Assembly: GCF_003815875.1 (NCBI RefSeq)
Contig: NZ_CP033924.1
Coordinates: 992,001-1,056,000 of the forward strand
Length of the DNA: 64,000 nt
Reading direction: 5' to 3'
Source of the DNA: Chryseobacterium lactis
GTDB taxonomy: Bacteria; Bacteroidota; Bacteroidia; Flavobacteriales; Weeksellaceae
Position numbers and translations under genes: made by a program. The stretch's first letter is position 1; each line of letters begins with the position of its first letter. Positions 25,522 through 60,321 of this stretch are shown here, piece after piece. Below the pieces are notes generated by a model. The model did not search any database and was not told where the DNA came from. It saw only the letters and a list, made by a program, of their open reading frames with translations.

Positions 25522-25863
25522 ATGAAAGACCAAGAAAGACTAGCTGCGCTAGAAAGCCAAATGTCCACTTTGGTAAACTCGCAAAAAGAGTTTACCTCCA
25601 AGGCGCTACAGATGCTCGCCCTCGGAACCAAGAAGATCTATTCCAAGGAAGAGGCCGCGCTGTTCCTCAACCTGGATCCGGACTATCTCTACCAACTCAA
25701 ACACCACGGCAAACTGAAGGCCTACAAAAAGAAGGGGCAAAAGAAAATCTACTTTCGCAAAGAAGACCTAGAAGCTTATCTTCTGGGGGATAATGTGGAG
25801 GAAATACAAAATGATGACTACGATGCATTCGAGCAGGAAATTCTGGAGCGATGGAAGAAATAA
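25522..25863 (+). CDS. Excisionase/MerR-like helix-turn-helix protein
   Basis: This 113-aa protein has an N-terminal coiled segment (ERLAALESQMSTLVNSQKEF). A winged HTH of the HTH_17 type follows (YSKEEAALFLNLDPDYLYQLKHHG, then RKEDLEAYL), typical of excisionases and element-borne DNA-binding proteins. The ATG at 25522 was preferred to an upstream TTG at 25486. It overlaps the following VapE gene by 13 bp. It may bind the island origin or promote excision. This gene and the next are visibly richer in G+C than the flanking genes. Confidence 0.75.
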   Translation: MKDQERLAALESQMSTLVNSQKEFTSKALQMLALGTKKIYSKEEAALFLNLDPDYLYQLKHHGKLKAYKKKGQKKIYFRKEDLEAYLLGDNVEEIQNDDYDAFEQEILERWKK

Positions 25864-35880: not shown

Positions 35881-37128
35881 ATGAAAAAATTAATAATAAC
35901 AGCAGTACTGGCCTTCCTTTACACTACCATTGATGCTCAGCAAATGTCCCTGCCCGCTGTAATGGACAGTATCGCAGCCAACCATCCGGTGGTAAAAATG
36001 TACAATGCCGAAATCCGGTCAATGGATGCTGCCGCAAAAGGAGCAAGAAGCTGGATGCCTCCAACCGTAGGAGCAGGTTTCTTCATGACGCCCTATAATG
36101 CAAAACTCTGGCAGCGCGACGGCGATATGCTCGGCATGGGCTCAGTAGCAGTTTCGGTGGAACAGATGTTTCCTAACAGAAAGAAACTCAACGCCAACGA
36201 AAATCTGATGAAGGCAATGTCCTCTGTGGAAAAGGAAAAACTTTTTGCCGCCCTCAATGAAAACTTTCAGGATGCGAAAAAACTGTATTACAGTTCAATC
36301 GTCTTGGATAAAAAGCTGAAGGTCGTAAAGGAAAACGAAAAGATGCTGGACTTTATGATTAGAAACGCCGAAATCCGGTACAAAAACGGGCTTTCCAAAA
36401 TATCTGCATATTACAAAGCCAAAGCCGCCCTCGGAAGCACCACAAACATGCAGCTCATGTACGAGAATGACCTCCGCGTCAACCGGATCCGGTTGAATGC
36501 CCTCATGGGAAGAGACCCGCTCGCGCCACTGGAGATTGAACCGGAATACAACCTGAATGATTATTCTCTCATGACTTTTGGTCAGGATCTATTTTATCAG
36601 AACAGAAGTGATCTCCGCGGCATCGACCGGGAAATCAATATTGCCAAACTCAAACAGGATTTGGAAAAGCAGAATCTAAAGCCGGAATTTGGCGTAAAGT
36701 TCGAAAACATGTTTGGTTTTGGCGGCCAGCCCATGCAGTTTTCACTCATGCTGATGGCAAAGCTGCCGTTTGTTTCCTGGGCTTCAGGCATGAATAAAGC
36801 CAATATTGAAAGTCTCAAACTGAAAGAAGAGGCCTTGCAGGCACAGAAAGAAATGATGGTGAACGAATACAGTGGAATGGCCTACGGAATGCGCAATGAA
36901 CTGGACCTGAATAAAAATCAGCTCAAACTCTATGAAGACACCATTATTCCGGCCTTAAAAAAGAACTACAAATCCATGCAGTTAGGCTACGAGCAGAATA
37001 CGGAAGAACTCTTCATGTTGTACGATGCCTGGGAACAGCTGAATATGGCCCAATTGGAATATTTCGAGATCCTGACCAAAGCACTGCAGACGCAAACTGA
37101 AATTGACCGCTTAATTGAAAGAAGATGA
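35881..37128 (+). CDS. TolC-family outer membrane channel (CusC-like)
   Basis: This 415-aa protein has a signal peptide (LIITAVLAFLYTTIDAQ) and long helical repeats typical of outer-membrane efflux proteins (VMDSIAANHPVVKMYNAEI; LKLYEDTIIPALKKNYKSMQLGYEQN). The final part is the TolC second repeat. It would link the split CusA pump and adaptors to the outside. Its 3' end overlaps the first adaptor gene by 4 bp (ATGA), showing co-translation. Confidence 0.85.
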   Translation: MKKLIITAVLAFLYTTIDAQQMSLPAVMDSIAANHPVVKMYNAEIRSMDAAAKGARSWMPPTVGAGFFMTPYNAKLWQRDGDMLGMGSVAVSVEQMFPNRKKLNANENLMKAMSSVEKEKLFAALNENFQDAKKLYYSSIVLDKKLKVVKENEKMLDFMIRNAEIRYKNGLSKISAYYKAKAALGSTTNMQLMYENDLRVNRIRLNALMGRDPLAPLEIEPEYNLNDYSLMTFGQDLFYQNRSDLRGIDREINIAKLKQDLEKQNLKPEFGVKFENMFGFGGQPMQFSLMLMAKLPFVSWASGMNKANIESLKLKEEALQAQKEMMVNEYSGMAYGMRNELDLNKNQLKLYEDTIIPALKKNYKSMQLGYEQNTEELFMLYDAWEQLNMAQLEYFEILTKALQTQTEIDRLIERR

Positions 37129-38375
37129 GAAAAATTATAATATTCACTATGCTTTTATTTGGTTTGACGGCGTGTGACAAAGTTAAGTTCTGGGAAGATA
37201 AGCACACGGCAGAGGCGGCAATGCACACCTATACCTGTCCGATGCATCCTGAAGTGATCTCAGACAAACCCGGAAAATGCCCCAAATGTGGGATGGATTT
37301 GGTCCTGAAAGATGCCCCTGAAAAAAAGGAAGAGGGGATTAAACTCGACGATCTGCTGAAACCAACCAATGAATTTGTAGTGTCGGAACAGCCCGTAATA
37401 AAATTAAAAAAGGAAAATATTCCCACCACCGTTGATGCTTTAGGGACGGTAGAATACGATACTCGACAGATTGGCAGTATTTCCTCACGCGTTGCGGGCC
37501 GTATCGAGAAACTCTATGTGCGGTATAAATACCAGAAAGTGTCGAAAGGGCAGCGTATTTTAGATATATACAGCCCGGAACTTTTAACCGCACAGCAAAA
37601 CCTGCTCTTCGTTATTAAAAATGACCGCTCAAACAAAACAATGATCGATGCTTCACGCCAGAAACTCCTTCTTTTGGGAATGCCGGCTTCACAGATACAG
37701 AAAGTCATCCAGCGAGGGAAACCTGATCTCACAGTTCCGGTTTTCAGCAATTACAGCGGACACATTCAGCAGGCAGGATCGGCCGGAAGCATGGGGTCAT
37801 CACCACAATCTGCACCCGCAATGGCTTCAAATAACGCGGTCACCGCTGAACTACCCCTAAAAGAGGGAATGTATCTCCAGAAAGGACAGAATATTTTCAG
37901 TGTCTACAATCCCAACAGAACCTGGGCCCTGATCAATATTTTCTCTGAAGACATTGCACTGGTCAGCAAAGGACAGTCAGTCATGATCATCCCTGAAGCC
38001 AATCCTGAAAATCGCTTCAAAGGAATCATCGGTTTTATTGAACCCTTTTTCAGGCAGGGCAGCAAAACCGTAACGGCGCGCGTCTATTTTGATAATTCCA
38101 CCGCAAAAATTCCTGTCGGAAGTCAGGTTAAAGCGGAGATTATGAGCCACAACAGAATGGCAGATTGGCTGCCGAAATCAGCGGTGGTTTCTTTGGGGAT
38201 TGATAAAATTGCGTTCAAAAAAGTTGAAGGCGGTTTTATTGCCCACAAGGTTGTTACCGGCGCGGTGGTAGGCGATAAAATTCAGATCGTCAGTGGTTTG
38301 CTTCCTGAAGATGGAGTTGCCGAAAATGCACAGTACCTGATGGACAGCGAAAGTTTCATAAAAATTAACAGATAA
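37125..38375 (+). CDS. CusB-type RND adaptor with N-terminal heavy-metal-binding domain
   Basis: This 416-aa lipoprotein (lipobox GLTAC) starts with a heavy-metal-binding domain ([20 protein letters not shown], then GMDLV). A membrane-fusion-protein body follows: a lipoyl/hairpin region around VAGRIEKLYVRYKYQKVSKGQ, a beta-barrel, and the membrane-proximal domain near KSAVVSLG. It connects CusA to the TolC-like channel and may hand metal to the pump. An extra Gly/Ser/Met-rich insertion (AGSMGSSPQSAPAMAS) breaks the hairpin region. Confidence 0.87.
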   Translation: MRKIIIFTMLLFGLTACDKVKFWEDKHTAEAAMHTYTCPMHPEVISDKPGKCPKCGMDLVLKDAPEKKEEGIKLDDLLKPTNEFVVSEQPVIKLKKENIPTTVDALGTVEYDTRQIGSISSRVAGRIEKLYVRYKYQKVSKGQRILDIYSPELLTAQQNLLFVIKNDRSNKTMIDASRQKLLLLGMPASQIQKVIQRGKPDLTVPVFSNYSGHIQQAGSAGSMGSSPQSAPAMASNNAVTAELPLKEGMYLQKGQNIFSVYNPNRTWALINIFSEDIALVSKGQSVMIIPEANPENRFKGIIGFIEPFFRQGSKTVTARVYFDNSTAKIPVGSQVKAEIMSHNRMADWLPKSAVVSLGIDKIAFKKVEGGFIAHKVVTGAVVGDKIQIVSGLLPEDGVAENAQYLMDSESFIKINR

Positions 38376-38386: not shown

Positions 38387-39592
38387 ATGAAATTTAATAT
38401 TTTAATGCTTGCCTTGCTGGTTTTTCTTTACTCCTGTAAAAAGGAGGAAGATCCGCATGCCGGCCACGATATCTACTACACCTGTTCCATGCACCCGCAG
38501 GTAGTCTCCGATAAACCCGGAAAATGCCCCATTTGTCACATGGATTTGGTGCCTGTGGAGAAGAAAAAGAATGCGGATCCTAACGAAATTGTTTTGAATG
38601 ACGAGCAGGTTAAACTTGGGAATATCAAAACAGTCGCGCTATCTGATGGGTCTATGGCCGACAAACTTACCCTGACCGGAACACTCAATTTTAATCAGTA
38701 CCAAATGCAGGCAGTAAGTTCCAGAGTAATGGGTAGAGTTGAACGGTTGTATTATAAAAACATTGGCGATTTTGTTCCGAAGGGGGCGCCGTTGGTCGAT
38801 ATTTACAGTGAAGAACTCAATAATGCAAAGCAGGAATATTTGCTGGCATTAGAAAGACGCAAGCTGTTCGTCGGTAATACTTCCATTGATTTTGATCAGT
38901 TGCTCCAAAGTTCCCGCAACAAGCTTTATTTATGGGGAATGTCCGAAGGCCAGATCAAACAGCTGGAAAGATCAGGAAAAGCCACACCTACTACTACCGT
39001 GTTCAGCAATGCGGCCGGTTACATCACCGATCTGAGCATTGCCGAAGGCGATTATCTTGCCGAAGGTGGCACCATCGTGAATCTGGCAGATCTTTCATCG
39101 CTTTGGGCAGAGGCGCAGGTGTATTCTTCCCAAATGGCTCTCCTTCAGAAAGACAGCAAGGTCACCGTATATATTCCCGATCTGGATAATTTGAAGATTA
39201 ATGGGAAGGTTGATTTTACAAACCCTGAAATAAGCGCCTCCAGCAGGATAAATCTGGTTCGCATTTCCGTGCCCAACAAAGGAAATCTGCTGAAACCCGG
39301 CATGCCGGTATATGTTCTGGTGGAAAATAAATCCCGTGATGGTCTTTCAATGCCTGTGGATGCGGTAATCAGGGATGGCAAATCTTCCACGGTGTGGGTG
39401 AAAACCGCGAAGAACACCTTCGTCAACAGAATGGTGGAAACGGGTCTCGAATATGAAGACAGAATAGAAATCACATCAGGAATTAAGGCGGGAGACGAAG
39501 TAGTGGTGTCCGGAGCATACCTACTGAACAGTGAATACATTTTCAAGAAAGGGGTTGATCCCATGGCGGGTCACGATATGAGCACAATGTAA
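38387..39592 (+). CDS. Second CusB-type adaptor with heavy-metal-binding domain
   Basis: This 401-aa lipoprotein (lipobox FLYSC) has an N-terminal DPHAGHD segment and a metal-binding domain ([20 protein letters not shown] with HMDLV, where the usual GMDLV Gly is His). An adaptor body follows, with VSSRVMGRVERLYYKNIGDFVPKG and a Met/His-ending C terminus (MAGHDMSTM). It follows the first adaptor by 11 bp. Two adaptor subunits with one pump may form a hetero-hexamer, or one may serve another pump. Confidence 0.85.
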   Translation: MKFNILMLALLVFLYSCKKEEDPHAGHDIYYTCSMHPQVVSDKPGKCPICHMDLVPVEKKKNADPNEIVLNDEQVKLGNIKTVALSDGSMADKLTLTGTLNFNQYQMQAVSSRVMGRVERLYYKNIGDFVPKGAPLVDIYSEELNNAKQEYLLALERRKLFVGNTSIDFDQLLQSSRNKLYLWGMSEGQIKQLERSGKATPTTTVFSNAAGYITDLSIAEGDYLAEGGTIVNLADLSSLWAEAQVYSSQMALLQKDSKVTVYIPDLDNLKINGKVDFTNPEISASSRINLVRISVPNKGNLLKPGMPVYVLVENKSRDGLSMPVDAVIRDGKSSTVWVKTAKNTFVNRMVETGLEYEDRIEITSGIKAGDEVVVSGAYLLNSEYIFKKGVDPMAGHDMSTM

Positions 39593-39593: not shown

Positions 39594-40055
39594 ATGAGAA
39601 AATTGAATATGATAGGCTGGCTGGCGGTGCTAGTGGTGGCTATTGTTTTAGTCATTCAGGTCATACCGGTGGAGCGTAATGTCTCCACCGTTCCGCCAGG
39701 TCAAAGTTTTGAAAAAACCGAAAAGGTGCCCGCCAACGTGGCTGCAATCCTTAAAGTTTCCTGCTATGACTGTCATTCAAATAATACCCGTTATCCCTGG
39801 TATTCGGTATTACAGCCGGGCGCGTGGTTCATGGCCCGGCATATTAAAAAAGGCAAAGAAGAACTCAATTTTGATGAGTTCAATAACTATTCAAAAAGAC
39901 GTAAAAAAGCAAAAATAAAAAGCATCATCAGCCAGATTGAGAAAGACGAAATGCCTTTAAAATCATACCGCATGATGCACGGAAACGCCAGATTATCAGC
40001 GGATGAAAAAAAAGAACTGTTAGATTTTTTTCGTGACAACGAATATAGTAAGTAA
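39594..40055 (+). CDS. Heme-binding domain protein (single CxxCH)
   Basis: This 153-aa protein has one N-terminal membrane anchor (IGWLAVLVVAIVLVIQVI). A periplasmic heme-binding domain with CYDCHSNNTRYPWYSVLQPGAWF follows, a c-type heme site of the Haem_bd (PF14376-like) group. It begins 1 bp after the second adaptor stop and closes the efflux operon. A possible role is redox handling of copper, such as keeping Cu in an exportable state, but this is inference. Confidence 0.78.
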   Translation: MRKLNMIGWLAVLVVAIVLVIQVIPVERNVSTVPPGQSFEKTEKVPANVAAILKVSCYDCHSNNTRYPWYSVLQPGAWFMARHIKKGKEELNFDEFNNYSKRRKKAKIKSIISQIEKDEMPLKSYRMMHGNARLSADEKKELLDFFRDNEYSK

Positions 40056-40172: not shown

Positions 40173-40745
40173 GTGATGAAATTAAATATTAAAAATATGG
40201 TTTGCAGCCGATGTCTCAAAGTGCTTAGGCAAGAGCTTGAACAACTGGGAATTAAGGTTTCATCAATTGAACTCGGGGTATTGGTAATCGACGAGATGGC
40301 TGGTAATCATACTGAAATCATGGCGAAAATTGAAAGTGTTCTCCATACCAATAAATTTGAAATAATCCATAGTCCAGAGGAAGTGCTCGTCGAAAAAATT
40401 AAACATTTTTTGCTTTGTAAAATAGAAGAGCCCCCTCTCGATTCCACGGTAAACCTATCTCAAATTTTAAGCACGGAGTTCAACCACGAATATAAGTCAC
40501 TGAGCAAGTTGTTCTCACACTTTGAAAATACAACGCTGAAAAAATATTTTATTAAATTAAAAATTGAGAAAGTAAAACAACTTATTCAACTCAGGCAGTA
40601 CACCTTTTCAGAAATAGGGCATCTCCTGGATTACAGCAGCGTCAACCATCTGTCGAGACAGTTTAAAGAGATTACCGGAGAGAGCATGACTGAGTATAAA
40701 AATGCTGAACTAGCCAATCGAAGACCCTATGATGAAATTAGTTAA
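40173..40745 (+). CDS. AraC-family regulator with HMA-like N-terminus
   Basis: This 190-aa protein has a short N-terminal module beginning MKLNIKNMVCSRCLKVL, with the M-x-C-x-x-C spacing of HMA metal-binding domains. It has the beta-alpha-beta length expected of an HMA domain (about 70 aa). The AraC double HTH follows (LIQLRQYTFSEIGHLLDYSSVNHLSRQFKEITG). It lies 117 bp after the efflux operon on the same strand. A one-component metal sensor that binds Cu through the CxxC and controls the island copper genes is the likely role. Confidence 0.8.
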   Translation: MMKLNIKNMVCSRCLKVLRQELEQLGIKVSSIELGVLVIDEMAGNHTEIMAKIESVLHTNKFEIIHSPEEVLVEKIKHFLLCKIEEPPLDSTVNLSQILSTEFNHEYKSLSKLFSHFENTTLKKYFIKLKIEKVKQLIQLRQYTFSEIGHLLDYSSVNHLSRQFKEITGESMTEYKNAELANRRPYDEIS

Positions 40746-41078: not shown

Positions 41079-41330
41079 ATGAAACAACAAATTGAAATAA
41101 CAGGAATGTCCTGCGAAGGCTGCGTTAAAAATGTCGAAAAAGCGTTGAAAGAAATTGATGGCGTACAGAATGTAAAAGCGAGTCTGCATCCACCACGCGC
41201 AGTTATTGAAGCAGAGAAATCGATTAATACAGCGCAGTTAACGCAAGCCTTGGCGAAAGTAGGTTATAGTATTGCCGGCGCTTCCGTAGATGAGAATTTA
41301 AAAAAGTCTGGTGGCTCCTGTTGCTGTTGA
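41079..41330 (+). CDS. HMA-domain copper chaperone-like protein
   Basis: This 83-aa cytoplasmic protein is a single heavy-metal-associated domain with GMSCEGCVKNVEKAL (CxxC at residues 11-14). It has an unusual C-terminal metal-grabbing tail GGSCCC. HMA proteins shuttle Cu(I) to P-type ATPases; the likely client is the CopB-type ATPase in this island or a chromosomal CopA. The extra Cys tail resembles that of some mercury/copper scavenging proteins. Confidence 0.85.
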   Translation: MKQQIEITGMSCEGCVKNVEKALKEIDGVQNVKASLHPPRAVIEAEKSINTAQLTQALAKVGYSIAGASVDENLKKSGGSCCC

Positions 41331-41560: not shown

Positions 41561-41902
41561 ATGACAGGTTATCACACGTACCAAAGTTGTATTGAAGCAT
41601 GTTTAAAATGTGCTGCAATATGTAATCACTGTGCTTCATCATGCACTGAGGAAGAAGATGTAAAAATGATGGCGAGATGCATTCAGTTAGACATGGAATG
41701 CGCAGCGATCTGCTATGCATCAGCACAGTTAATGAGCCTCGGCAGCGACAAAGCAAAAGACATTTGCCGTATTTGTGCCGACATCTGTGAAGCATGTGCT
41801 GCAGAATGTGAAAAACATGCACAACATGGAATGGATCATTGCCGTGAATGTGCAGAAGCTTGCAGAAAATGCGCCGAAGAATGCCGGAAAATGGCAGCGT
41901 AA
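41561..41902 (+). CDS. Four-helix-bundle copper storage protein (DUF326/Csp-like)
   Basis: This 113-aa protein is packed with regularly spaced Cys along amphipathic helices (CIEACLKCAAICNHCASSC; CIQLDMECAAICYASAQ; CRICADICEACAAECEKH; CRECAEACRKCAEECRKM). This is the Csp fold, whose inner surface stores many Cu(I) ions. There is no signal peptide, so it is a cytosolic Csp3-type protein. It sits alone between the HMA and beta-propeller genes and is followed by a likely terminator. Confidence 0.9.
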   Translation: MTGYHTYQSCIEACLKCAAICNHCASSCTEEEDVKMMARCIQLDMECAAICYASAQLMSLGSDKAKDICRICADICEACAAECEKHAQHGMDHCRECAEACRKCAEECRKMAA

Positions 41903-41978: not shown

Positions 41979-43070
41979 ATGAAAAAATTTTTTACCCCGA
42001 CATTGGTTGTCATATTGACCATGCTATTTGTTATGGTCAGCAGTTGCGGCAATAACGATAATAGCAATACCAATAGTAGTAATACTGATAAACCATCTTC
42101 ATTGCCAAGGGCTAAAGTTTATGTAGCCAATGAAGCCGGAGGCAGTGTTTCAGTTATTGATCTTCAGGATAGCTTAAAAACTACAAGCATTGACTTAAGT
42201 GATAGCGCCGGAACTATGTTTATGGCCCATAATGTTCAGGTGGCCCCCAATGGAAAATCTGTTTGGGTGGCGGCAGCAGGTATGGACAGCAGTAAAACAA
42301 ATTACTTAATAGTTATTGACCCAAACAGCGGTACAATAAAAGAGCGTGTGCTGTTAGGTAAAGATCTACACGTGGCCCATGTAGTTTTAGACGATCAATC
42401 AAAGAATGCATTTGTAACCGCAGGTGCAACGAATGAGGTCATACAAGTAGATGCAACGACCTATCAGGTGGTACGGAAGTTTGATTTAGGTGCAAAACAT
42501 GCACCACATGGTTTGCGCTACGCTAAAGGCAAATTGTATGTAGCCAATATGGACGGAAAAAGCATGTCTGTCATTACTGTAGCTGATGGCAAAGTAACTG
42601 ATATTCCTCTTGGCGGAATAGCTCCACAGGTGGCAGTTACCCGTGATGATAAATTTATTTTCATCTCTTTATACGACACAAAAGAGGTGATACAGTATGA
42701 CCTTAAAAATGGTCAACTAAACAGAATACCATTACCTGCTACTGCTCAAGGTCCAATTCAGTTGTATGCTACCCCTGATAGTAAGTTACTGTATGTGGCT
42801 GACCAGGGAGAGTTACTCGGAAGACCGGTTTCAAACGAGGTTTATGTAATAGACATACCAAACGCAAAAGTGATAAGTACCATTAAAGTTGGTAAGAAGG
42901 CACACGGTGTTGTAGCAAGCAACGACGGCAAATCAGTTTATGTAACAAATACTATAGACAATACAGTTTCTGTGATTGATGTGGCAAGTCAAAAAGTAAT
43001 CCACACAATCCCGGTTGGCAAAGGCCCTAATGGAATAAGCTATTGGTTTGAAACTGGCGGTATGCCGTAA
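41979..43070 (+). CDS. YncE-like beta-propeller lipoprotein
   Basis: This 363-aa lipoprotein (lipobox MVSSC) has a Ser/Asn-rich linker. About seven blades of the YVTN type follow, such as AKVYVANEAGGSVSVIDL, GKLYVANMDGKSMSVITV and GKSVYVTNTIDNTVSVIDV. Such secreted propellers bind DNA, metal or proteins; the exact role is unknown. It lies between the Csp and GAPDH genes in the copper island. The AT content and gene style match the adjacent GAPDH rather than the Cus block. Confidence 0.75.
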   Translation: MKKFFTPTLVVILTMLFVMVSSCGNNDNSNTNSSNTDKPSSLPRAKVYVANEAGGSVSVIDLQDSLKTTSIDLSDSAGTMFMAHNVQVAPNGKSVWVAAAGMDSSKTNYLIVIDPNSGTIKERVLLGKDLHVAHVVLDDQSKNAFVTAGATNEVIQVDATTYQVVRKFDLGAKHAPHGLRYAKGKLYVANMDGKSMSVITVADGKVTDIPLGGIAPQVAVTRDDKFIFISLYDTKEVIQYDLKNGQLNRIPLPATAQGPIQLYATPDSKLLYVADQGELLGRPVSNEVYVIDIPNAKVISTIKVGKKAHGVVASNDGKSVYVTNTIDNTVSVIDVASQKVIHTIPVGKGPNGISYWFETGGMP

Positions 43071-43149: not shown

Positions 43150-44181
43150 ATGGAAAAGATTAAAGTAGCCGTAAACGGATATGGTGTCATTGGCAAACGG
43201 GTTGCCGATGCCGTACAGATGCAGGAAGACATGGAACTGTCAGGTGTATGTGATGTGGTAACTGACTGGCGCATTCAAATGGCGGTATTAAAAAAATATC
43301 CTGTGTTTGCTTCCGATGATACTTTTCAAATTAAGATGAACGAAGCCGGAATAAATTCATCAGGCACATTGAACGACCTGCTTGCATCATCAGATATTAT
43401 TGTGGATTGCACACCCAAGAAAATCGCTGCTCAAAATATAGAGCTTTATAAAAAACTTGGTAAAAAGTTTATTTTACAGGGAGGTGAAAAGCATGAAACA
43501 ACCGGTCATTCCTTTAGTGCCGAAAACAACTATGCCACTGCACTTAACCTTGATGCTACAAGAGTAGTTTCCTGCAACACTACATCCATTGTGAGAACAT
43601 TAACCGCCCTGAAGAATGCAGGCTTGCTCTTAAAAGCAAGAGGTACTCTACTTCGTCGTGCAACCGACCCATGGGAAAGTCATTTGACCGGGATTATGAA
43701 TACCCTAGTTCCCGAAAAAGAAATACCAAGTCATCAGGGGCCGGATGCGCAATCCGTTGACCCCTCTTTTGACGTTATCACATCAGCAGTTAAAGTACCG
43801 GAAACGTTAAGCCATCTACATTACTGGAATGTACAGTTGACCAGAAAGGCCGATAAGGAAGAAGTTTTGGATGCGTTCAATAAATCTACCAGAATTGCAA
43901 TGATTAAATACAGCGATGAGTTAGCCGCTAATAATACAGTTAAGGAATTAATGCTTGCAATAGGCCGCCCTTATGGAGATATGTATGAAGTAGCCTTGTG
44001 GCAAGACATGCTGAAAGTGGTTGGAGATGAAGTGTTCTATGCTTACCTAGTCGATAATCAGGCTATCGTAATCCCCGAAACCATTGACGCTATCCGTGCC
44101 CTAACCGGAATTGAACCAGACGCTGAAAAGTCGATACTTAAGACCAACGAAAGCCTTGGAGTTAAACAGAGTTTTTATTAG
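43150..44181 (+). CDS. Archaeal-type (type II) glyceraldehyde-3-phosphate dehydrogenase
   Basis: This 343-aa protein matches type II GAPDH. It has an N-terminal Rossmann motif KVAVNGYGVIGKRVADAV, the catalytic Cys in VSCNTTSIVRTL at about residue 142, LLRRATDPWESH, and the phosphate-binding region near NTLVPEKEIPSHQGPDAQ. This class oxidises GAP with NAD(P) and is standard in Archaea but rare in Bacteroidota. The usual bacterial GapA motif (SCTTN) is absent. It lies upstream of a class I aldolase, split from it by an IS1595-family insertion. Confidence 0.88.
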   Translation: MEKIKVAVNGYGVIGKRVADAVQMQEDMELSGVCDVVTDWRIQMAVLKKYPVFASDDTFQIKMNEAGINSSGTLNDLLASSDIIVDCTPKKIAAQNIELYKKLGKKFILQGGEKHETTGHSFSAENNYATALNLDATRVVSCNTTSIVRTLTALKNAGLLLKARGTLLRRATDPWESHLTGIMNTLVPEKEIPSHQGPDAQSVDPSFDVITSAVKVPETLSHLHYWNVQLTRKADKEEVLDAFNKSTRIAMIKYSDELAANNTVKELMLAIGRPYGDMYEVALWQDMLKVVGDEVFYAYLVDNQAIVIPETIDAIRALTGIEPDAEKSILKTNESLGVKQSFY

Positions 44182-44331
44182 GAGTAAGCAAAAAGTAAAT
44201 TATCAAATTAATAAAACGGAATGTTAAGGAAAATGGTTTTGTACCCTGCAAATATTTGTAAGACGCGCACTTCCGCAAATGCCTATTTCTAAAACAAATA
44301 GAAATTTAGGGATTAAATTAAAGTTTAAAAA

Positions 44332-45331
44332 AAATGAATCCTCGATATATTACCTAAATTTTGTAACTTAGTATCAAATAGTTATCATGAACCTACTCAA
44401 TTTCGTAGAGCAATATCCTGATGAGGCAAGTTGCAAATCAAAATGGAAAGAATTTCGGGACAAGCAAGGCGTAGAATGTCCCAAATGCGGCGGAAAGGAG
44501 CATTACTGGAAGCAAGACAAAGAGCAGTATGAGTGTAAAAACTGCAAATACCGGCAAAGTTTGCGCAGTAACACAGTGATGCACGGCAGCCAGCTGCCTT
44601 TCCGCTACTGGTTTATTGCGATGCATCTGCTTACCTCGACCAAAAAAAGTTTTTCGGCACTTGAGCTGCAACGGCAATTGGGACACAAATATTACAATCC
44701 TATATGGGAATTGCTGCATAAATTACGCGCTGCAATGGGCAACCGGGATGCCAATTATACGTTGTCTGATGTAATCGAATTGGATGAGGGCTTTTTTTCG
44801 ACAGAAATTCCCGATGAGGAAAAAGAAAAACCGTTAAAAAGAGGACGTGGAAGCCAAAAGAAAAGCAAGGTTCTGGTGATGGTGGAAAGCCGTCCCGTAG
44901 AAGAAAAAACCAGGAAAAAAGGAAAATCCAGACAAGTAGGATACCTGAAAATGAAAGTGATAAACGACTTGAAATCAGAAACGATAACTCCGTTGGTAAA
45001 AGAAAATGTGGAAGAAACTGCAACGATAGATTCGGACGATTCCACCTCATATACCAGATTGGGAGAAGTTGTGAAAGAGCATCGCCCAAAAGTAATTCCA
45101 AAGAAAGAGATTGGAAAAATGTTACCTTGGGTGCATATTGCAATCAGCAATGCCAAACGTATGCTGTTAGATGTTTTCCACGACATCAAACCGGAATATT
45201 TGCAAAGCTACCTCAATGAGTACTGCTACAAGTTCAACCGAAGATACTTTGGAGAATCCCTGTTCGACAGGCTTGTGGTAGCTTCTATATCTCAAAAAAA
45301 TAGTTTTAGGCATAATATCAAGTAGTCATTT
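44332..45331 (+). mobile_element. IS1595-family insertion sequence
   Basis: A 27-bp imperfect terminal inverted repeat (21/27 matches) is formed by 44332-44358 (ending GATATATTACCTAAA) and 45305-45331 (starting TTTAGGCATAATATC). It encloses one transposase gene whose stop lies inside the right repeat. The flanks are A-rich (TTTAAAAAAA on both sides), so a target duplication is plausible but its length is ambiguous. The right end lies 8 bp before the aldolase start. Confidence 0.75.
44387..45325 (+). CDS. IS1595-family transposase
   Basis: This 312-aa transposase has an N-terminal zinc ribbon (CPKCGGKEHYW, then YECKNCKYRQS). A helical region (LPFRYWFIAMHLLTSTKKSFSALELQRQLG) and the DDE-type ISXO2-like domain follow: ELDEGFF for the first Asp, TIDSDDSTSY for the second, and VFHDIKPEYLQSYLNEYCYKFNRR near the C terminus. 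All domains are present, so it is probably active. Confidence 0.9.
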   Translation: MNLLNFVEQYPDEASCKSKWKEFRDKQGVECPKCGGKEHYWKQDKEQYECKNCKYRQSLRSNTVMHGSQLPFRYWFIAMHLLTSTKKSFSALELQRQLGHKYYNPIWELLHKLRAAMGNRDANYTLSDVIELDEGFFSTEIPDEEKEKPLKRGRGSQKKSKVLVMVESRPVEEKTRKKGKSRQVGYLKMKVINDLKSETITPLVKENVEETATIDSDDSTSYTRLGEVVKEHRPKVIPKKEIGKMLPWVHIAISNAKRMLLDVFHDIKPEYLQSYLNEYCYKFNRRYFGESLFDRLVVASISQKNSFRHNIK

Positions 45332-45339
45332 AAAAAAAA

Positions 45340-46401
45340 ATGAAAATGAACGATAACATTGCAGACTTATTAGGCAAGAAGGCAGCCTTCTATTTGGATC
45401 ACGTTTGCCAAAAAATTACAAAAGATGAACTGCTGACTCCAGGCAAATACAGTCTGGAAAAGGTCTTTGGCGATAGCAACAGAAACCCGCAGGTTCTGCG
45501 GAGTCTCGCTCAACTTTATGGTCAGGGTAATCTTGGCGGCACGGGTTATCTGAGCATTCTTCCCGTTGATCAGGGTATTGAGCATAGTGCTGTGTACTCA
45601 TTTTATAAAAACCCCGACTATTTCGACCCTGAAAACATTTTAAAACTTGCACTCGAAGCCGGCTGTAACGGTGTGGCTTCTACCTTCGGCGGGTTAGCCT
45701 TGAATGCCCGAAAATATGCGCACAGAATCCCTTTCATTGTAAAGATTAATCACAATGAATTACTGAGCTTTCCAAATAAATATGACCAAACGCTATTTGG
45801 AAAAGTTAAAAACGCCTGGGATATGGGGGCCCTTGCCATAGGAGCAACCATCTATTTTGGTTCCGACGAAAGCGACAGGCAGATCACAGAAATTTCCGAG
45901 GCGTTTGAGCATGCCCATCAGCTCGGTATGGCGACTATATTATGGTGCTATCTTCGAAATGAGGCATTTAAAACAGCAGATCAGGATTATCACTCCGCTG
46001 CGGATTTGACAGGACAAGCCAATCATATCGGAGTAACAATTCAAGCTGATATTATTAAACAAAAATTGCCGACAAATAATTTTGGATTCAAAAACATTAA
46101 GTTCGGTAAATACGATGACACGATGTATGAGGCACTAACAACTCCCCACCCGATTGACCTCTGCAGGCTGCAGGTAGCGAACTGTTACATGGGCAAAATC
46201 GGATTAATTAACTCCGGTGGCGATTCAAAAGGTGAGTCAGATCTGCTTGAGGCCATTACAACAGCGGTCATCAACAAAAGAGCGGGCGGCACTGGACTGA
46301 TTATGGGACGGAAGGCATTTCAGCACCCGTTTAAAGACGGTGTGAACTTGCTACAAAGGGTACAGAATGTATATCTCGATAATAAAATAACAGTTGCCTA
46401 A
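45340..46401 (+). CDS. DhnA-type class I fructose-bisphosphate aldolase
   Basis: This 353-aa protein matches the DhnA/FbaB class I aldolase family: [45 protein letters not shown] and [22 protein letters not shown]. These Schiff-base enzymes cleave fructose-1,6-bisphosphate without a metal ion, unlike the zinc class II aldolase usual in bacteria. The start (ATG 45340, or 45346) lies just beyond the IS1595-family right end, so the native promoter may have been lost. With archaeal-type GAPDH it makes a consecutive glycolytic step pair. Confidence 0.88.
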
Positions 46402-46427: not shown

Positions 46428-47270
46428 ATGAAGATTCCCATTAGCATCGTAAAAAAGTCCGGAGATATTGTCGTATTTGATGTCGAAAAACTCACTAATT
46501 CACTTAGGCGCGCGTCTGCTGGGGAAAACGTCATTCAGCAAATTGTTGGTGAGGTTCAGTCCACGATTTACGAGGGCATGACCACCTCAAAGATCTATAA
46601 AATTGCTTTTGATTTGTTAAAAAAATATTCCCGCGTAAGTGCTTCAAAATACAAACTCAAAACCGCACTCTTTGAATTGGGTCCCTCCGGTTTTCCCTTT
46701 GAAAAATTAGTGGGCAAACTGATGGCTCATGAAGGTTTTTCCACCCAGGTTGGGGTCATTGTTCAGGGAAATTGCGTGTCGCATGAAATAGATGTCATCG
46801 CTGACAAAGACGACCAGCACTGTTTTATTGAATGTAAATTTCACAGCGACCAAGGGAGATTTTGCAATGTAAAAATTCCTCTGTATGTCAATTCCAGATT
46901 TCTGGATGTAGAAAAACAGTGGAAAAAACAAAAAAGTAACGAAGGAAAAATATCTAAAGGAGGTGTGTACACCAATACAAGATTCACTTCTGATGCCACA
47001 CAATATGGGAAATGTGCAGGTTTACTAATGGCAAGCTGGGACTATCCTTTTGGGAACGGTTTAAAAGAGAGAATAGACAAATCCGGTTTGCACCCATTAA
47101 CCGCATTAACGACCCTGACAAAAAACGAAAAAACAAAATTGTTAGACCTCGGCTTAGTCCTGTGCAAAGAAATTTATGAAAACCCGGAGGTCTTAAACCA
47201 AATCGGTATTTCAAAACCTCGCCATAAAAACATTATAAAAGATGCAAAAGAATTATGCTCTTTACATTAA
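46428..47270 (+). CDS. ATP-cone domain fused to PD-(D/E)xK nuclease-like domain
   Basis: This 280-aa protein has an N-terminal ATP-cone at about residues 3-90 (VKKSGDIVVFDVEKLTNSLRRA; YKLKTALFELGPSGFPFEKLV), as in NrdR and ribonucleotide reductases. It is followed by an Mrr-like nuclease core: HEIDVIADKDDQHCFIECKFH gives the E-x-D...ExK active site at about residues 123-143. Such a fusion could cut DNA in response to ATP/dATP levels. It starts 26 bp after the aldolase and is 12 bp before the beta-CASP RNase gene, in one operon. No methylase partner is present. Confidence 0.8.
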   Translation: MKIPISIVKKSGDIVVFDVEKLTNSLRRASAGENVIQQIVGEVQSTIYEGMTTSKIYKIAFDLLKKYSRVSASKYKLKTALFELGPSGFPFEKLVGKLMAHEGFSTQVGVIVQGNCVSHEIDVIADKDDQHCFIECKFHSDQGRFCNVKIPLYVNSRFLDVEKQWKKQKSNEGKISKGGVYTNTRFTSDATQYGKCAGLLMASWDYPFGNGLKERIDKSGLHPLTALTTLTKNEKTKLLDLGLVLCKEIYENPEVLNQIGISKPRHKNIIKDAKELCSLH

Positions 47271-47282: not shown

Positions 47283-48656
47283 ATGAAAAACACTAAAATT
47301 ACCATTCATTTTTTGGGAGCTGCAGGAACAGTAACGGGTTCCAAATATTTAATCGATACAGGAGATCATCAACTCTTAATAGACTGCGGCCTTTTTCAAG
47401 GGTTAAAGGAATTACGGCTTAAAAACTGGGAATATCCGCCTGTGGACGTTTCAGCCATTGATGCCGTTTTATTGACTCATGGCCATTTCGACCACACAGG
47501 ATACCTTCCACGATTAATAAAATATGGTTTTAACGGACCAGTTTACGGAACAAATCCCACTTTGGATATTGCCACAATCATTCTGAATGACAGTGCCAAA
47601 ATCCAGGAACAGGAAGCGGCGCGAGCTAATAAAGAAGGTTACTCCAAACACAGTCCGGCAGAACCGCTGTATGGTGTGAAGGATGTAGCAAAAACCATTT
47701 CCCATTTTAAGGAGGTTCCACCATCACAGTGGATTCCGTTGTTTGAGGGCATCAGTGCCCGATTTCAGTACAATGGGCATATCTTGGGTTCTACTTTCAT
47801 AGAGCTGGAGATACATGAAAAACGTTTTGTTTTTTCCGGGGATATTGGACGCACAAATGATTTATTGTTGTTTCCACCCCTGAAACCAGAAAAGGCGGAT
47901 GTTCTTTTCATAGAGTCGACCTACGGAGGAAGGTTTCATCCGGATGAAGTGGAAGCGGTTCCGGAGATTGAAAAATTAGTCAACGACACCATTAACCGTG
48001 GAGGCAGCCTGTTTATCCCAAGTTTTTCGGTTGAACGTGCTCAACTGATGATGCTTATTTTATGGAGGTTGCTTAACGAAAATAAAATACCCAAAGTACC
48101 GATAATCATGGACAGTCCGATGGGAGCCAGCATACTCGATCTGTTTTACCGTACCAGAGATTGGCACCGGTTAACAACCGACGAATGTGATGAAATGTGC
48201 GATCATTTCACGGTGGTCAGCAGCTATCAGGAAACCATGGAGTTGCGGTCCGACAACAAACCAAAAATTGTTATCGCCGGCAGCGGGATGCTCACCGGTG
48301 GCAGAATGCTCAACTATCTTGAAACCCAGGCACAAAACCCTGATAATACCCTGCTTTTTGTCGGCTATCAGGCCGAAGGAACCCGTGGAAGAAAACTATT
48401 GGATGGTGAGAAAGAACTAAAAGTGTATGGAAAATGGGTTCCTTTCAATATGGAAATAGCGGAAATTGAAGGACTGTCTTCACATGCAGACCACAATGAA
48501 CTCCTTGGCTGGATGAATGGAATAACAAATATTCCGGAAAGAATTTTCATCGTACATGGGGAGAAGGAAGGCGCAGAAGCGCTGCAGCTGGGCATAAAAG
48601 AAACCTACGGCTGGGATTCCCAAATACCGCAACTTTATGATATTGAAGAATTATAA
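47283..48656 (+). CDS. Beta-CASP metallo-beta-lactamase RNase
   Basis: This 457-aa protein has the MBL core motifs (LLTHGHFDHTGYLPRL with HxHxDH; VFSGDIGR; FIHV-like IFIVHGEKEGAEAL). The beta-CASP insertion and RNA-specificity domain follow (GSGMLTGGRMLNYLE, LLFVGYQAEGTRGRKLLDG, VEGLSSHADHNELLGW). It is a predicted RNA endo/exonuclease of the Ysh1/CPSF-73 type. It lies between the ATP-cone nuclease and a P-loop protein with 9-12-bp spacings, suggesting a joint stress or defence role. Confidence 0.88.
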   Translation: MKNTKITIHFLGAAGTVTGSKYLIDTGDHQLLIDCGLFQGLKELRLKNWEYPPVDVSAIDAVLLTHGHFDHTGYLPRLIKYGFNGPVYGTNPTLDIATIILNDSAKIQEQEAARANKEGYSKHSPAEPLYGVKDVAKTISHFKEVPPSQWIPLFEGISARFQYNGHILGSTFIELEIHEKRFVFSGDIGRTNDLLLFPPLKPEKADVLFIESTYGGRFHPDEVEAVPEIEKLVNDTINRGGSLFIPSFSVERAQLMMLILWRLLNENKIPKVPIIMDSPMGASILDLFYRTRDWHRLTTDECDEMCDHFTVVSSYQETMELRSDNKPKIVIAGSGMLTGGRMLNYLETQAQNPDNTLLFVGYQAEGTRGRKLLDGEKELKVYGKWVPFNMEIAEIEGLSSHADHNELLGWMNGITNIPERIFIVHGEKEGAEALQLGIKETYGWDSQIPQLYDIEEL

Positions 48657-48665: not shown

Positions 48666-49226
48666 ATGAATCATATAAGGGACAGTAAAATCAAGCATTC
48701 AGAAGAGACCAACTGGTATGTGATTACCGGCGGACCCAGTACCGGAAAAACAACGACCATTGATTTGCTTCAGAAGCAAGGTTACCATACGACAATAGAA
48801 CACGCAAGGCATTACATTGATACCATGCATAATGAAGGAAATTCCGTTAAAGAAATTAGAAGCAATAAGAAGAAATTTCAATTGGGCGTGTTAGATATGC
48901 AGATTGCCCAAGAAGGATCGCTCAATAAGGAGGATATGGTTTTTTTGGACAGGGCTATCCCGGACGCAATGGCTTATTATCAATTTTTAAACTTGGATTA
49001 TGATGAAAAGTTACTTAATGCCGTCAACGGGGTTTCCTACAAAAAAATCTTTATTTTAGACCGATTGCCTTTTACCAAAGACTATGCGAGAACCGAAAAT
49101 GAAGACGATCAAAAACTAATTCATCAGTTGATAATAGAAAGCTATACCAATCTCGGTTTCACTATCGTTTTTGTTCCGGTTTTGCCTCCCGAAGAAAGAG
49201 TGAAATTCATTTTAGATAATTTATGA
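48666..49226 (+). CDS. Small P-loop ATPase/kinase (AAA_28-like)
   Basis: This 186-aa protein has Walker A TGGPSTGKTTTIDLL at about residue 21, followed by HARHYIDTMHNEG, MVFLDRAIPDAMAYYQ and DRLPFTKDYARTENEDD. This is the pattern of AAA_28/NadR-kinase-like P-loop proteins that phosphorylate small molecules. It lies 9 bp after the beta-CASP RNase. The substrate is unknown. Confidence 0.78.
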   Translation: MNHIRDSKIKHSEETNWYVITGGPSTGKTTTIDLLQKQGYHTTIEHARHYIDTMHNEGNSVKEIRSNKKKFQLGVLDMQIAQEGSLNKEDMVFLDRAIPDAMAYYQFLNLDYDEKLLNAVNGVSYKKIFILDRLPFTKDYARTENEDDQKLIHQLIIESYTNLGFTIVFVPVLPPEERVKFILDNL

Positions 49227-49272: not shown

Positions 49273-49845
49273 ATGAAAAATTCAGAACATGATCACAACA
49301 TGCTTAAGGATACTGATTCAGCAACAGGCAATCATTCCAAACATGAAATGGAATCGGGCAAGGAGTCTGTACAGCACGCGCAAAAAAGCCATGCCTCTGC
49401 ATACAAAAAGTTATTTTGGATGCTTCTGATTTCCTTTATTTCAATGTTTATACTAATGTATGCGATGGTGGACAAGCTGGCTAACGTAATTCCAAACATA
49501 AACCAGTTATACATGGCAGGCCTGATGGCTTCTCCTATGTTAATCATCGAACTGCTGTTAATGGGGAAGATGTATCCCAACAAAAAACTCAATAAAATTC
49601 TTATGGGCCTCGGAGTGCTGATGATGGTGCTGTTTTGGTCCGGGATTCGGCAGCAGACAGCCGTGGGAGATGTCCAGTTTCTAAAGTCCATGATTCCACA
49701 CCATGCAGGGGCTATTCTTATGGTCGAAGAAAGTAATCTGGTCGATCCGGAAGTGAGAAAGTTGGGCGAGGAAATTATCAAAGCACAGGAGGAAGAAATT
49801 GCCGTCATGAGGGCGAAAATTAAGGAACTTCAAACCCGGAAGTAA
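49273..49845 (+). CDS. DUF305 membrane protein, His-rich
   Basis: This 190-aa protein has a His-rich N-terminal tail (HDHNMLKDTDSATGNHSKHE). Three transmembrane helices lie at about residues 47-68, 80-96 and 107-123. A DUF305 signature with FLKSMIPHHAGAILMVEESN follows, a His pair likely to bind copper. DUF305 proteins are frequent in copper islands. The gene lies 46 bp after the P-loop gene and 37 bp before copB. Confidence 0.8.
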   Translation: MKNSEHDHNMLKDTDSATGNHSKHEMESGKESVQHAQKSHASAYKKLFWMLLISFISMFILMYAMVDKLANVIPNINQLYMAGLMASPMLIIELLLMGKMYPNKKLNKILMGLGVLMMVLFWSGIRQQTAVGDVQFLKSMIPHHAGAILMVEESNLVDPEVRKLGEEIIKAQEEEIAVMRAKIKELQTRK

Positions 49846-49882: not shown

Positions 49883-52009
49883 ATGAAAAAATACACCTGT
49901 CCCATGCATCCCCAGATATTGAAGGACGAACCGGGGAAATGTCCACTTTGCGGAATGAACTTAATTCCCTTGGGAGGAACCGCCCGACCTGAAAAAGACG
50001 AACACAGCCATCATCATCAGAATCATGATCATCACTCAGAATCTGATAGTTCAGCGGCGGGATTTGACAAACATGCAGGTCATCATACTCCGGATTTCCT
50101 GAAGAGATTCTGGATCTCTTTGGCACTTACCGTTCCGGTCCTTCTGCTTTCTCATATGATTCAGCAGTGGCTTGGTTTCACAATTGCTTTTAACGGTGAT
50201 AAATATGTACTTCTGGTTTTGGGAAGTATTATTTATTTCTACGGTGGAATGCCTTTTTTCAAAGGGTTTTTGGGCGAAGTGAAAGCCGGAGCTATTGGGA
50301 TGATGACGCTCGTTGCTTTGGCGATTACCGTAGCTTATGTCTATTCCGTTGCAGTCGTATTCGGGCTGCCGGGCATGGATTTCTTCTGGGAACTTGCCAC
50401 CTTAATTGTGATCATGCTTCTTGGGCACTGGCTCGAGATGCGTTCGCAGATGGCTGCTTCAAAAGCGTTGCAATCTCTAGTTGCCTTACTACCAAATGAC
50501 GTAACCGTCGAGCAGAACGGAAGTCCGGTTAAAATAAAACTGGGACAGCTGAAAAACGGAGATACTGTAATCATAAGACCGGGCGAAAAAGTCGCCGCTG
50601 ACGGTCTGATTGTCGAGGGCACTTCTTACTTAAATGAAAGCATGCTGACGGGAGAAAGTGTTCCTGTAAGAAAAGAGTCCGGTGGAAAGGTTATCGCAGG
50701 GTCTATCAATGGAGACGGGGCTTTAAAGATAAAAGCAACAGGGGTTGGGAAGGATTCGTACCTCAATAAGGTCATTAATTTGGTTCAAGATGCTCAGGCA
50801 GCAAAGTCGAACACTCAGAATCTGGCGGATAAAGTAGCCAAATGGCTTACTATAGTAGCAATTGTGGTGGGAGTAGGAACTTTCGCTTACTGGTACATCA
50901 CCATGGGAGATTTGGCTTTTGCTCTGGAACGGATGGTAACGGTAATGGTAACAGCCTGCCCTCATGCTTTAGGAGTGGCAATCCCTCTGGTGGTGGCCAT
51001 TTCCACTACACTTTCAGCGACAAATGGTTTACTCATCAGAAACCGAACGGCTTTTGAAACCACGAGAAAATTATCGACCATTATTTTCGATAAAACCGGC
51101 ACCCTTACGAAAGGTTCCCACACCGTGCAGAAAATCATTCCTCTAACTGAGCACTATTCGGAAAACGATTTACTCCAGTATGCAGCGGCAGTGCAGCAGA
51201 ACTCCGAACATCATATTGCAAAAGGAATCATGCAGACCCTTTCCGAGAAAAAACTGGAGCTATGGAAGTCAGACAGTTTCCGCTACATGCAGGGAATTGG
51301 AGTGACAGGAATCGTAAACGGTAAATCGGTTGTCGCGGCTGGTCCTAATTATTTTGTTCAAAACAATAAACAGGTACCTGCCATTCCGGAAGAAATCAAC
51401 CAGGATGCAGAAACAGTGAACTTTATTCTGATTGATGACGTGCCCGTGGGTATTGTTTCTTTAGCAGATACCATTCGCGAAGGCGCAAAAGAAGCTATTG
51501 ACCAACTTCGAAGCATGAACATTAAATCATTCCTGCTTACAGGTGATAACGAAAAGGTAGCGGCGGCGGTGTCAAAGCAGTTAGGAATGGACGGATATTT
51601 GGCAAATGTACTTCCGCACCACAAACAGGAAAAAGTAAAAGAATTTCAGGATAAAGGGGAAATCGTTGCGATGACAGGTGACGGCGTAAATGATGCACCG
51701 GCTTTGGCAGCAGCAGATGTAGGCATTGCAGTTGGCAGCGGAACTGATGTTGCTGCCGAAACCGCAGATATTATTCTGGTCAACAGTGACCCTCGAGACG
51801 TGGTGAAAATGATAGATTTTGGAAAGAAAACCTACAGCAAGATGATCCAGAATCTCGTATGGGCAGTGGGCTACAACGTCGTGGCTATTCCACTTGCTGC
51901 GGGTGTTCTGTATCCTACATTTGTCCTGAGTCCCGCCATGGGCGCAGTGCTGATGAGTGTCAGTACCATCGTGGTCGCACTTAATGCAAGTTTGTTAAAA
52001 ATTAAATAA
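49883..52009 (+). CDS. copB: CopB-type copper-translocating P-type ATPase (CPH motif)
   Basis: This 708-aa P1B ATPase starts with a heavy-metal-binding domain ([17 protein letters not shown] ... CGMNLIP) and a His-rich stretch ([11 protein letters not shown]). The transmembrane Cys-Pro-His motif is at residues 359-361 ([13 protein letters not shown]), the phosphorylation site DKTGTLT near 403, and the hinge [16 protein letters not shown] near the C terminus. CPH marks the CopB subgroup, believed to export Cu(II)/Cu(I) or Ag. It lacks CxxC HMA domains, so it is not CopA. Confidence 0.9.
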
Positions 52010-52016: not shown

Positions 52017-52712
52017 ATGAAATATATATTTTCGCTCTTCCTATTTATGGCAATGTCCATAAACAGTTATTCACAGAGCACCAAAACCGTGTACACCTGC
52101 CCGATGCATCCACAGGTCGTGAAATCAGCACCCGGTAACTGCCCCATTTGCGGCATGACACTGGTGAAGAAAACCGTTACTGAGAAAAAAACGGCGGCCA
52201 AATCCGCAGCTGCTCCTAAAAAAGTTACAGCAGTTAAAAAAACTACGGCTAAGAAACCTGAAATTACCGCTGCAAAAACAAAGACGGTAACGGAAGTTAA
52301 AAAAACGATCCTGCCAAAGGCTAAACAAACACCGAAAGATCCAGCCGCCGTTAAGACCCCACAACATCAAACTTCAGATCATAATCAGCATGAAGCTGCG
52401 CAAAAAAGTTACACATGTCCGATGCACCCCGAGGTCGTTTCAGACAAACCCGGACAGTGTCCGAAATGCGGAATGAATCTGGTCCCTCAGAAGGAAAGCG
52501 GCCGGCATCAGTCTACCGGCAAAACCCCGGAACATCAAACTTCAGATGCGCATCAGCATGAAGAAGCGCAAAAGATGTACACCTGCCCGATGCATCCCGA
52601 GGTGATATCGGACAAACCCGGAAAGTGTCCCAAGTGCGGTATGAATCTGGTGCCTCAAAAAAGGAAAGAAGGAAGATCATTCTGCACACGGAAACATGCA
52701 GATACATGGTGA
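52017..52712 (+). CDS. Secreted protein with three heavy-metal-binding domains, frameshifted from the oxidase
   Basis: This 231-aa product has a signal peptide ([13 protein letters not shown]) and three copies of the YTCPMHP...CGMNLV domain, starting near residues 26, 132 and 188. They are joined by Lys/Ala/Pro and His-rich linkers. After the third domain, an A6 run at 52657-52662 appears to hold one base too many. The frame used by the downstream oxidase continues naturally as [10 protein letters not shown]. The ORF overlaps the oxidase by 17 bp. Intact, this would be the signal and metal-binding head of one fused oxidase. Confidence 0.82.
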
Positions 52713-60276: not shown

Positions 60277-60321
60277 GACTGTTAATCAGAGGGTCGCTGG
60301 TTCGAGCCCAGCAGGAGGAGC
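60277..60321 (+). repeat. attR of the genomic island
   Basis: This is an exact 45-bp copy of the tRNA-Asn 3' part, beginning within the anticodon stem at GACTGTTAATC. The 5' half of the tRNA is missing here, so it is a partial, non-functional tRNA copy. It marks the right island boundary. Confidence 0.95.

Follow-up and report, generated by a model that had tools for sequence, protein, structure and literature searches.

A type II GAPDH and a class I aldolase linked to copper genes on a mobile element of Chryseobacterium lactis

Why should enzymes of central metabolism travel with copper resistance genes? The question is raised by a stretch of 64,000 nucleotides of Chryseobacterium lactis (NZ_CP033924.1, positions 992,001 to 1,056,000; the whole stretch is called the window here), in which a type II, archaeal-class glyceraldehyde-3-phosphate dehydrogenase (GAPDH-II) and a DhnA-type class I fructose-bisphosphate aldolase are encoded within a mobile copper island. 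A first-pass annotation of the window described them as two consecutive glycolytic enzymes of types unusual for Bacteroidota and suggested a horizontally moved, copper-tolerant bypass of glycolysis or gluconeogenesis. Our survey shows that the linkage to copper genes recurs in other genomes, and we tentatively propose that the pair may serve as backup central metabolism under copper or respiratory stress.

The enzyme pair and its association with copper genes

The island GAPDH-II matched the models NF003251 (443.2 bits, cut-off 185) and TIGR01546 (329.5 bits, cut-off 232.9) over its full length and aligned end to end with the archaeal structures 1cf2, 2czc and 2yyy, with 1b7g listed over the same range. 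This confirms an archaeal-type GAPDH in a copper island. The likeness to archaeal type II enzymes spans the whole sequence and includes the active-site motif SCNTTSIVRTL, whose C142 we take to be the catalytic cysteine. Unlike them, the island enzyme is bacterial, its gene lies next to copper genes on a mobile element, and the protein lacks the second cysteine that 1cf2 and 2yyy have six residues further on. Phosphorylating GAPDH activity is predicted from family membership. The class I (DhnA) identity of the aldolase is likewise borne out, since it scored 618.7 bits against the DhnA/FbaB-type model NF006707, well above the cut-off of 327. Its K240 stands opposite chain residue 177 of the class I aldolases 2yce and 1w8s, at the end of a local alignment, and is presumably the Schiff-base lysine; aldolases of this class need no metal. 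Both open reading frames (ORFs) are uninterrupted.

Of 295 Bacteroidia genomes, 5 had GAPDH-II, among them that of the window, and with so few carriers in a class-wide sample the association with copper genes was tested on genomes found through GAPDH-II itself. Eighty GAPDH-II loci were kept out of 208 confirmed, some of them on short contigs. For 49 of the 80, the surroundings of the best GapA gene in the same genome (up to 20 kb), labelled by the same blastp procedure, served as control. The survey, which the first-pass annotation had called for, came out positive: copper genes lay within ca. 10 kb in 40 of 49 GAPDH-II loci compared with 1 of 49 GapA loci, and a P1B ATPase in 29 of 49 compared with 0 of 49 (Fisher p ~9e-12, kinship ignored). 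The outcome that the annotation had named as refuting, no co-occurrence with metal genes elsewhere, thus did not occur. P1B counts include only ORFs of at least 400 residues, which excludes short CopZ-like ORFs. Across all 80 loci, 53 had copper genes and 34 a P1B ATPase. When longer flanks were used for 18 test loci, 17 of them among the 49, and the controls were left as they were, copper genes were present in 47 of 49 and P1B ATPases in 43 of 49. Among 54 P1B-labelled ORFs near GAPDH-II, 34 carried a CPH motif and 4 a CPC motif, 2 had no readable motif and 14 were too short; in the extended flanks the motifs were CPH in 14 of 18, CPC in 2, CPD in 1 and none in 1. No description of this linkage was seen among the titles and abstract openings surveyed in an open-access library, subscription papers and preprints not being covered.

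Where both enzymes were encoded, the aldolase started no more than 1.5 kb downstream of GAPDH-II, or overlapped it by less than 50 nt, in 47 of 49 loci. The first-pass description of the two genes as consecutive holds for the seven closest islands compared (L002-L007 and L010), where BLAST showed a gap of ca. 156 nt free of any insertion sequence (IS), a junction read through in sequence for L002, L004 and L005. It fails for the window itself, in which an open IS1595-family transposase ORF sits between the pair; among the islands compared, only this genome has it. A repeat of 14-15 nt (TTTAAAAAAAATGAA / TTAAAAAAAAATGAA) marks the insertion edges at the aldolase start, and the aldolase ORF remains intact, its ATG lying 15 nt past the transposase stop.

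The supposed rarity in Bacteroidota stood for GAPDH-II but not for the aldolase family, which occurred in 200 of the 295 Bacteroidia genomes, though it is uncommon in its own order (of the 10 other genomes listed from its genus or order, 1 has it). In contrast to the common chromosomal copies, the island aldolase is a distinct lineage tied to GAPDH-II. In a 78-row tree, all 48 GAPDH-II-linked aldolases clustered, separately from the remaining copies, in a 49-row group (support 100/99). The 49th row was a second copy from a genome also having a linked copy, and five copies located 11-19 kb from GAPDH-II fell outside. Omitted from the tree were cluster copies of at most 320 residues, L151 (the same gene as the truncated L028 copy), L179 (short), L180 and L175 (duplicates) and L173 (wrong frame).

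Horizontal transfer of GAPDH-II is supported by sequence comparison. In the eight closest islands (L002-L007, L009 and L010), identity was 94-99% for GAPDH-II, 89-99% for the aldolase and 85-94% for GapA. In 46 of 49 genomes the identity of GAPDH-II exceeded that of the best GapA; in 2 the values were equal and in 1 GAPDH-II was lower. This result is favoured by picking genomes via GAPDH-II, which biases its identities upwards. Four Acidobacteriota had 78-79% identity for GAPDH-II compared with 45-47% for GapA.

Plasmids extend the association beyond Bacteroidota. A GAPDH-II match was found in 37 plasmid records, in 35 of them over at least 80% of the query, and 16 of the 37 were inspected, the flanks covering 11-14 kb or reaching the record end; 10 of these 16 had an annotated heavy-metal or copper P1B ATPase in the stretch. 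On a Corynebacterium marinum copper plasmid, a CPH ATPase, a DUF305 protein and GAPDH-II are consecutive, and the other strand carries an aldolase (PF00274), a beta-phosphoglucomutase-family gene, a phosphoketolase and a four-helix copper protein. In Meiothermus, GAPDH-II is preceded upstream by a PF01791 aldolase (ca. 7.5 kb off), GlgP and PfkA and followed ca. 7 kb downstream by a CPC ATPase. These two plasmids from other phyla thus also bring GAPDH-II together with a class I-type aldolase and a pump of copper type.

A larger stress cluster and its regulator

The idea of a stand-alone bypass of glycolysis or gluconeogenesis did not hold up; the pair instead belongs to a larger stress cluster. 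Recurrent neighbours in the 80 loci were DUF5676 (56 loci), an ATP-cone/Mrr protein (51), the aldolase (49), a beta-CASP nuclease (43), a regulator labelled CopZ-AraC (42), an NDH-2-like oxidoreductase (34-36; NDH2_C domain by Pfam, no NDH-2 model matched in NCBIfam), two kinds of Usp (32 and 30), an AMP-phosphorylase-like thymidine phosphorylase (28; above the NF003338 cut-off, under that of AMP_phos), a phosphoribosyl pyrophosphate (PRPP) synthase (24) and phosphofructokinase (PFK; 19-24). Further neighbours were an SDF symporter, an NhaA-like protein (by sequence only), a 2-hydroxyacid dehydrogenase, PPK2 and acetate kinase. Where checked, recurrent neighbours were co-oriented nearly throughout. 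Since PFK was also found in 26 of 49 GapA control loci, it is no special sign of the cluster; a Usp label occurred in 5 of the 49. A frequent order at the far end in Flavobacteriaceae is nuclease, phosphorylase, PRPP synthase, CPH ATPase and MFS gene. The island in the window represents a mobile, pared-down form of this widespread cluster, with no Usp, NDH-2 or PFK among its identified genes.

The domain structure of the regulator points to copper. Its N-terminus is a CopZ/Atx1-like MxCxxC domain, although Pfam reported the helix-turn-helix (HTH) part only and did not detect the CopZ-like domain. M8, C10 and C13 are invariant in 26 homologues, and a profile of these, over residues ~1-70, found CopZ with an E-value of 3.5e-6 and copper-ATPase metal domains with E-values from 3e-10, zinc and mercury proteins ranking weaker. 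The AF2 model (mean pLDDT 87.7) has a beta-alpha-beta-beta-alpha-beta N-terminal domain, and Foldseek returned AraC-type HTH structures and, weakly, CsoZ, Atx1 and HAH1 (E 0.03-0.16, probability 0.94-1.00). The label was assigned in 28 of 49 GAPDH-II loci and 0 of 49 GapA loci, and 41 of the 43 CopZ-AraC ORFs of the 80 loci have a CxxC inside their first 40 residues. The regulator may sense Cu(I) and place the enzyme pair under copper control.

Searches for an operator yielded one pattern tied to the regulator. The palindrome TAGCC-N14-GGCTA was found in 14 of the 80 test loci and in none of the 49 controls (13 and 1 for a variant pattern); 13 of the 14 sit 25-150 nt upstream of the CopZ-AraC gene (L039, L044, L047, L048, L062, L063, L068, L073, L075, L076, L079, L080 and L081) and one lies inside another ORF. 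The palindrome is absent from the window and points at most to autoregulation in some Flavobacteriaceae. The direct repeat TATGG-N7-TATGG, enriched intergenically, was rejected as a coding artefact: of its 34 hits across the 80 loci, a short SHOCT-labelled gene accounts for 21, and the remaining hits are mostly repeats of the same coding sequence or fall within other genes.

The mobile element and its gene content

Within the window, 24185-60321 is an integrative element at a tRNA gene, as seen from a 45-bp perfect direct repeat of the tRNA-Asn 3' end, which encloses 36.1 kb, and from an integrase beside attR (Table 1). Together with the identity comparison above, this agrees with the first-pass view of a horizontally moved island in which copper resistance genes travel with the pair, copper genes flanking it on both sides. 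Comparison with a genome of the same genus (G294) gave matches to the left flank and to the end repeat and none to the interior of the island; the window DNA to the right of ~60354 had no match there either, 6 kb having been compared. The relaxase-like piece scores far under its model's cut-off and is directly followed by a short ORF (29455-29817); transfer of the island may need help from elsewhere. Near the right end lies an AbiEii-type nucleotidyltransferase of a type IV toxin-antitoxin family (57885-58808). Just beyond attR a second integrase of similar domain make-up (60562-61764) perhaps belongs to a neighbouring element.

Table 1. Features of the integrative element in the window
Feature	Coordinates	Strand	Evidence
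tRNA-Asn(gtt), integration target; 3' part 24185-24229 = attL	24155..24229	+	ARAGORN; 45-bp repeat
VapE-like protein, putative replication role	25851..27038	+	Pfam PF05272
MbpB-like mobilization (relaxase) piece	28909..29454	+	NF041420 62.6 bits, cut-off 400
DUF3347 protein	31980..32603	+	PF11827
CusA-type RND pump, N-terminal half, separate ORF	32618..33901	+	TIGR00914 positions 1-429 of 1051
CusA-type RND pump, C-terminal half, separate ORF	33904..35862	+	Relatives: L082 (annotated RND permease), L027, L024, L041
CusC-like outer membrane factor	35881..37128	+	Sequence and order, beside TolC-family gene in L082
Two CusB-like adaptor genes	37125..38375, 38387..39592	+	Sequence and gene order
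Haem-binding-domain protein	39594..40055	+	PF14376
Regulator, CopZ/Atx1-like MxCxxC domain and AraC-type HTH	40173..40745	+	HTH_18, profile, AF2, Foldseek
CopZ-like copper chaperone	41079..41330	+	NF033794 60 bits, under cut-off 95
Csp1-like four-helix copper storage protein	41561..41902	+	TIGR04401 51 bits, under cut-off 100
YncE-like beta-propeller	41979..43070	+	TIGR02276, PF21783
Type II (archaeal-class) GAPDH	43150..44181	+	NF003251, TIGR01546; PDB 1cf2
IS1595-family transposase	44387..45325	+	NF033547; flanking repeat; absent from relatives
Class I fructose-bisphosphate aldolase, DhnA type	45340..46401	+	NF006707, PF01791, tree
ATP-cone domain fused to Mrr-type nuclease domain	46428..47270	+	PF03477, PF04471
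Beta-CASP metallo-beta-lactamase nuclease	47283..48656	+	PF10996, PF07521; aCPSF1/Cas14-like (TIGR03675, NF045584), under both cut-offs
Small P-loop ATPase, AAA_28	48666..49226	+	PF13521
CopM/DUF305-like protein	49273..49845	+	PF03713; NF049983 under cut-off
P1B ATPase, CPH motif and HMBD	49883..52009	+	TIGR01511, TIGR01525; PF19335; motif ACPHALG
HMBD-repeat protein	52017..52712	+	PF19335, 3 stretches
Multicopper oxidase	52696..54933	+	PF07732, PF07731, PF00394
Tyrosine integrase beside attR	58845..60056	-	Pfam PF00589, PF13102, PF17293
attR, 45-bp copy of tRNA-Asn 3' end	60277..60321	+	Repeat comparison

With its RND pump, P1B ATPase, Csp1-like, CopZ-like and CopM-like proteins and multicopper oxidase, the element resembles other Cus/CopB/Csp copper islands; it differs from the usual kind in adding two enzymes of central metabolism, nuclease-like genes and the CopZ-domain AraC regulator. 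The P1B ATPase is of the CopB type by its CPH motif, which in a membrane helix we take to denote P1B-3, and copper specificity is predicted. The storage protein stays under the TIGR04401 cut-off and is thus called Csp1-like only. The CusA-type pump is split into two ORFs here, in L002-L007 and L009 and in the more distant L024, L027 and L041, and as two annotated genes on the Pontibacter plasmid L082, so that the two-part pump is apparently a stable arrangement. The host has its own housekeeping set of one full GapA, two class II aldolase family (PF01116) genes and one triose-phosphate isomerase, and the island enzymes are therefore extra.

Proposed backup metabolism and competing explanations

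The reading we prefer, whose chance we put slightly short of even, is that GAPDH-II and the class I aldolase are spares that back up central metabolism under copper or respiratory stress. They would act in the triose-phosphate part of glycolysis or gluconeogenesis (we infer the direction in vivo). Upon Cu(I) sensing by the CopZ-AraC regulator, the pair would be made together with the copper efflux and storage proteins and would keep carbon flowing when GapA and metal-dependent class II aldolases are poisoned. Such poisoning would be most severe when oxygen is low, as copper is then present as Cu(I), the form that prevails without oxygen, and ATP must come from glycolysis. The island enzymes would be copper-tolerant, a property we infer for both, and a bypass serving copper alone goes beyond what the evidence establishes.

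The active sites of the two GAPDH types differ. In 79 of 80 loci GAPDH-II has the motif SCNTTS[IV][LVI]RTL with a lone cysteine, lacking the second cysteine of the GapA motif SCTTNC, which is also that of the host GapA; the C-x3-C pair of GapA may be a copper site. Staphylococcus aureus, whose aldolase fda is presumably of class I, offers a comparison. GapA of S. aureus is reported to bind copper within the cell and to be subject to inhibition by Cu(I), an effect reversed by bathocuproine sulfonate (BCS) (PMC6350627), and Cu(I) also inhibits Prs (PMC10249872). The larger clusters hold both a GAPDH and a PRPP synthase. S. aureus changes its own enzymes under copper, whereas here spare isozymes travel with resistance genes.

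Several observations weigh against this reading. GAPDH-II keeps a catalytic cysteine that could be a Cu(I) ligand, and its total of cysteines (mostly 3) is little under that of GapA (mostly 3-4). In the S. aureus copper response, copper raised fda in TSB medium and had no such effect in TM medium (PMC6350627, PMC10249872). Outside Bacteroidota, the neighbouring pump is often without a recognised copper type: 6 of the 10 P1B-bearing plasmid records show a CPD motif (L087, L089, L200, L202, L205 and L206, these six from Alphaproteobacteria and Actinomycetota), and L204 has a P2-like pump. No operator common to several cluster genes was found in the intergenic pattern searches. In this strain the IS may reduce aldolase expression. 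The copper reference set was taken from the window and GAPDH-II neighbourhoods, and, the GapA control being a housekeeping region, part of the contrast may be one of island versus core genome. Further, the Usp, NDH-2-like, PPK2 and hydroxyacid dehydrogenase partners would fit any energy stress.

This last point leads to the strongest alternative, a general energy-stress module for microoxia or respiratory arrest, which we regard as a real, if somewhat doubtful, possibility. Here fermentative glycolysis and nucleotide recycling would take over when respiration stops; the metal pump would be only one of the module's stress genes and the enzymes need not be copper-tolerant. The acetate kinase among the partners and the plasmid copies beside CPD or P2-like pumps agree with it. 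So does a Bradyrhizobium study which reports induction at 0.5% O2 of an MBL hydrolase (bll3115), PRPP synthase (bll3116) and thymidine phosphorylase (bll3117), together with phosphoketolase bll2518, Usp proteins, a PfkB-type kinase and the CusA/CzcA pump blr4112 (PMC6515984), again at the expense of a purely copper-related function. The likeness of this trio to the cluster is one of product name and gene order alone, and the window's island, unlike the trio, has neither phosphorylase nor PRPP synthase. In intergenic DNA the FNR-like pattern TTGA-N5-TCAA was commoner on the test side (9 in 7 test loci, 3 in 3 control loci), whereas TTGAT-N4-ATCAA (1 test, 4 control) and TTG-N5-CAA (30 test, 48 control) were not enriched. 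A Crp/Fnr regulator, searched with a single reference, had no match in the 80 test or 49 control loci, in contrast to the CopZ-AraC counts given above. Moreover, the window's island has kept the enzyme pair and the nucleases among copper genes while showing none of the identified Usp, NDH-2 or PFK partners. The copper and microoxia readings are compatible and can both be true, because Cu(I) prevails without oxygen.

It is improbable that the pair entered the copper island by chance and was kept without a copper-related role. The element does carry an integrase and an IS, and the closest islands are so similar that recent spread alone could preserve the linkage. However, when the eight closest islands are removed, copper genes remain in 32 of 41 loci (P1B ATPases in 21 of 41), the GAPDH-II-linked aldolase forms its separate clade, and, as kinship lowers the effective number of loci to 25 clusters at 88% identity, copper genes are still found in 21 of these 25 (extended flanks, before the P1B length filter). 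A detoxification of the arsenate type, in which an unstable arseno-compound made by GAPDH is exported by an MFS pump as in the ArsJ system, is highly improbable: many extended clusters have an MFS gene after the P1B pump, but the one member checked (L060) best matched Tet-type efflux models, under cut-off, with ArsJ not among the best 25 of 59 families, and no ArsJ-type MFS gene was identified in the window's island.

Returning to backup metabolism under copper stress, a more far-reaching form of it, which we consider rather unlikely, is resistance by target replacement, in which mobile, Cu(I)-controlled, copper-proof isozymes cross phyla with copper pumps. GapA would be replaced by GAPDH-II and the class II aldolase by a class I enzyme, this slot being filled from two different Pfam families; larger clusters would add a second PRPP synthase as a substitute for Prs and, perhaps, NDH-2 in place of the Fe-S complex I. 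To our knowledge, metal resistance has been described mostly as export, storage or oxidation. Here, spare enzymes of central metabolism are present as well, on the island and on related ones in several phyla, and the GAPDH, as well as the PRPP synthase of the larger clusters, would replace enzymes that are copper targets in S. aureus. If the spares withstand copper, they would represent resistance via target replacement and, if this is true, naturally tolerant versions would make it testable which enzymes copper poisons in cells.

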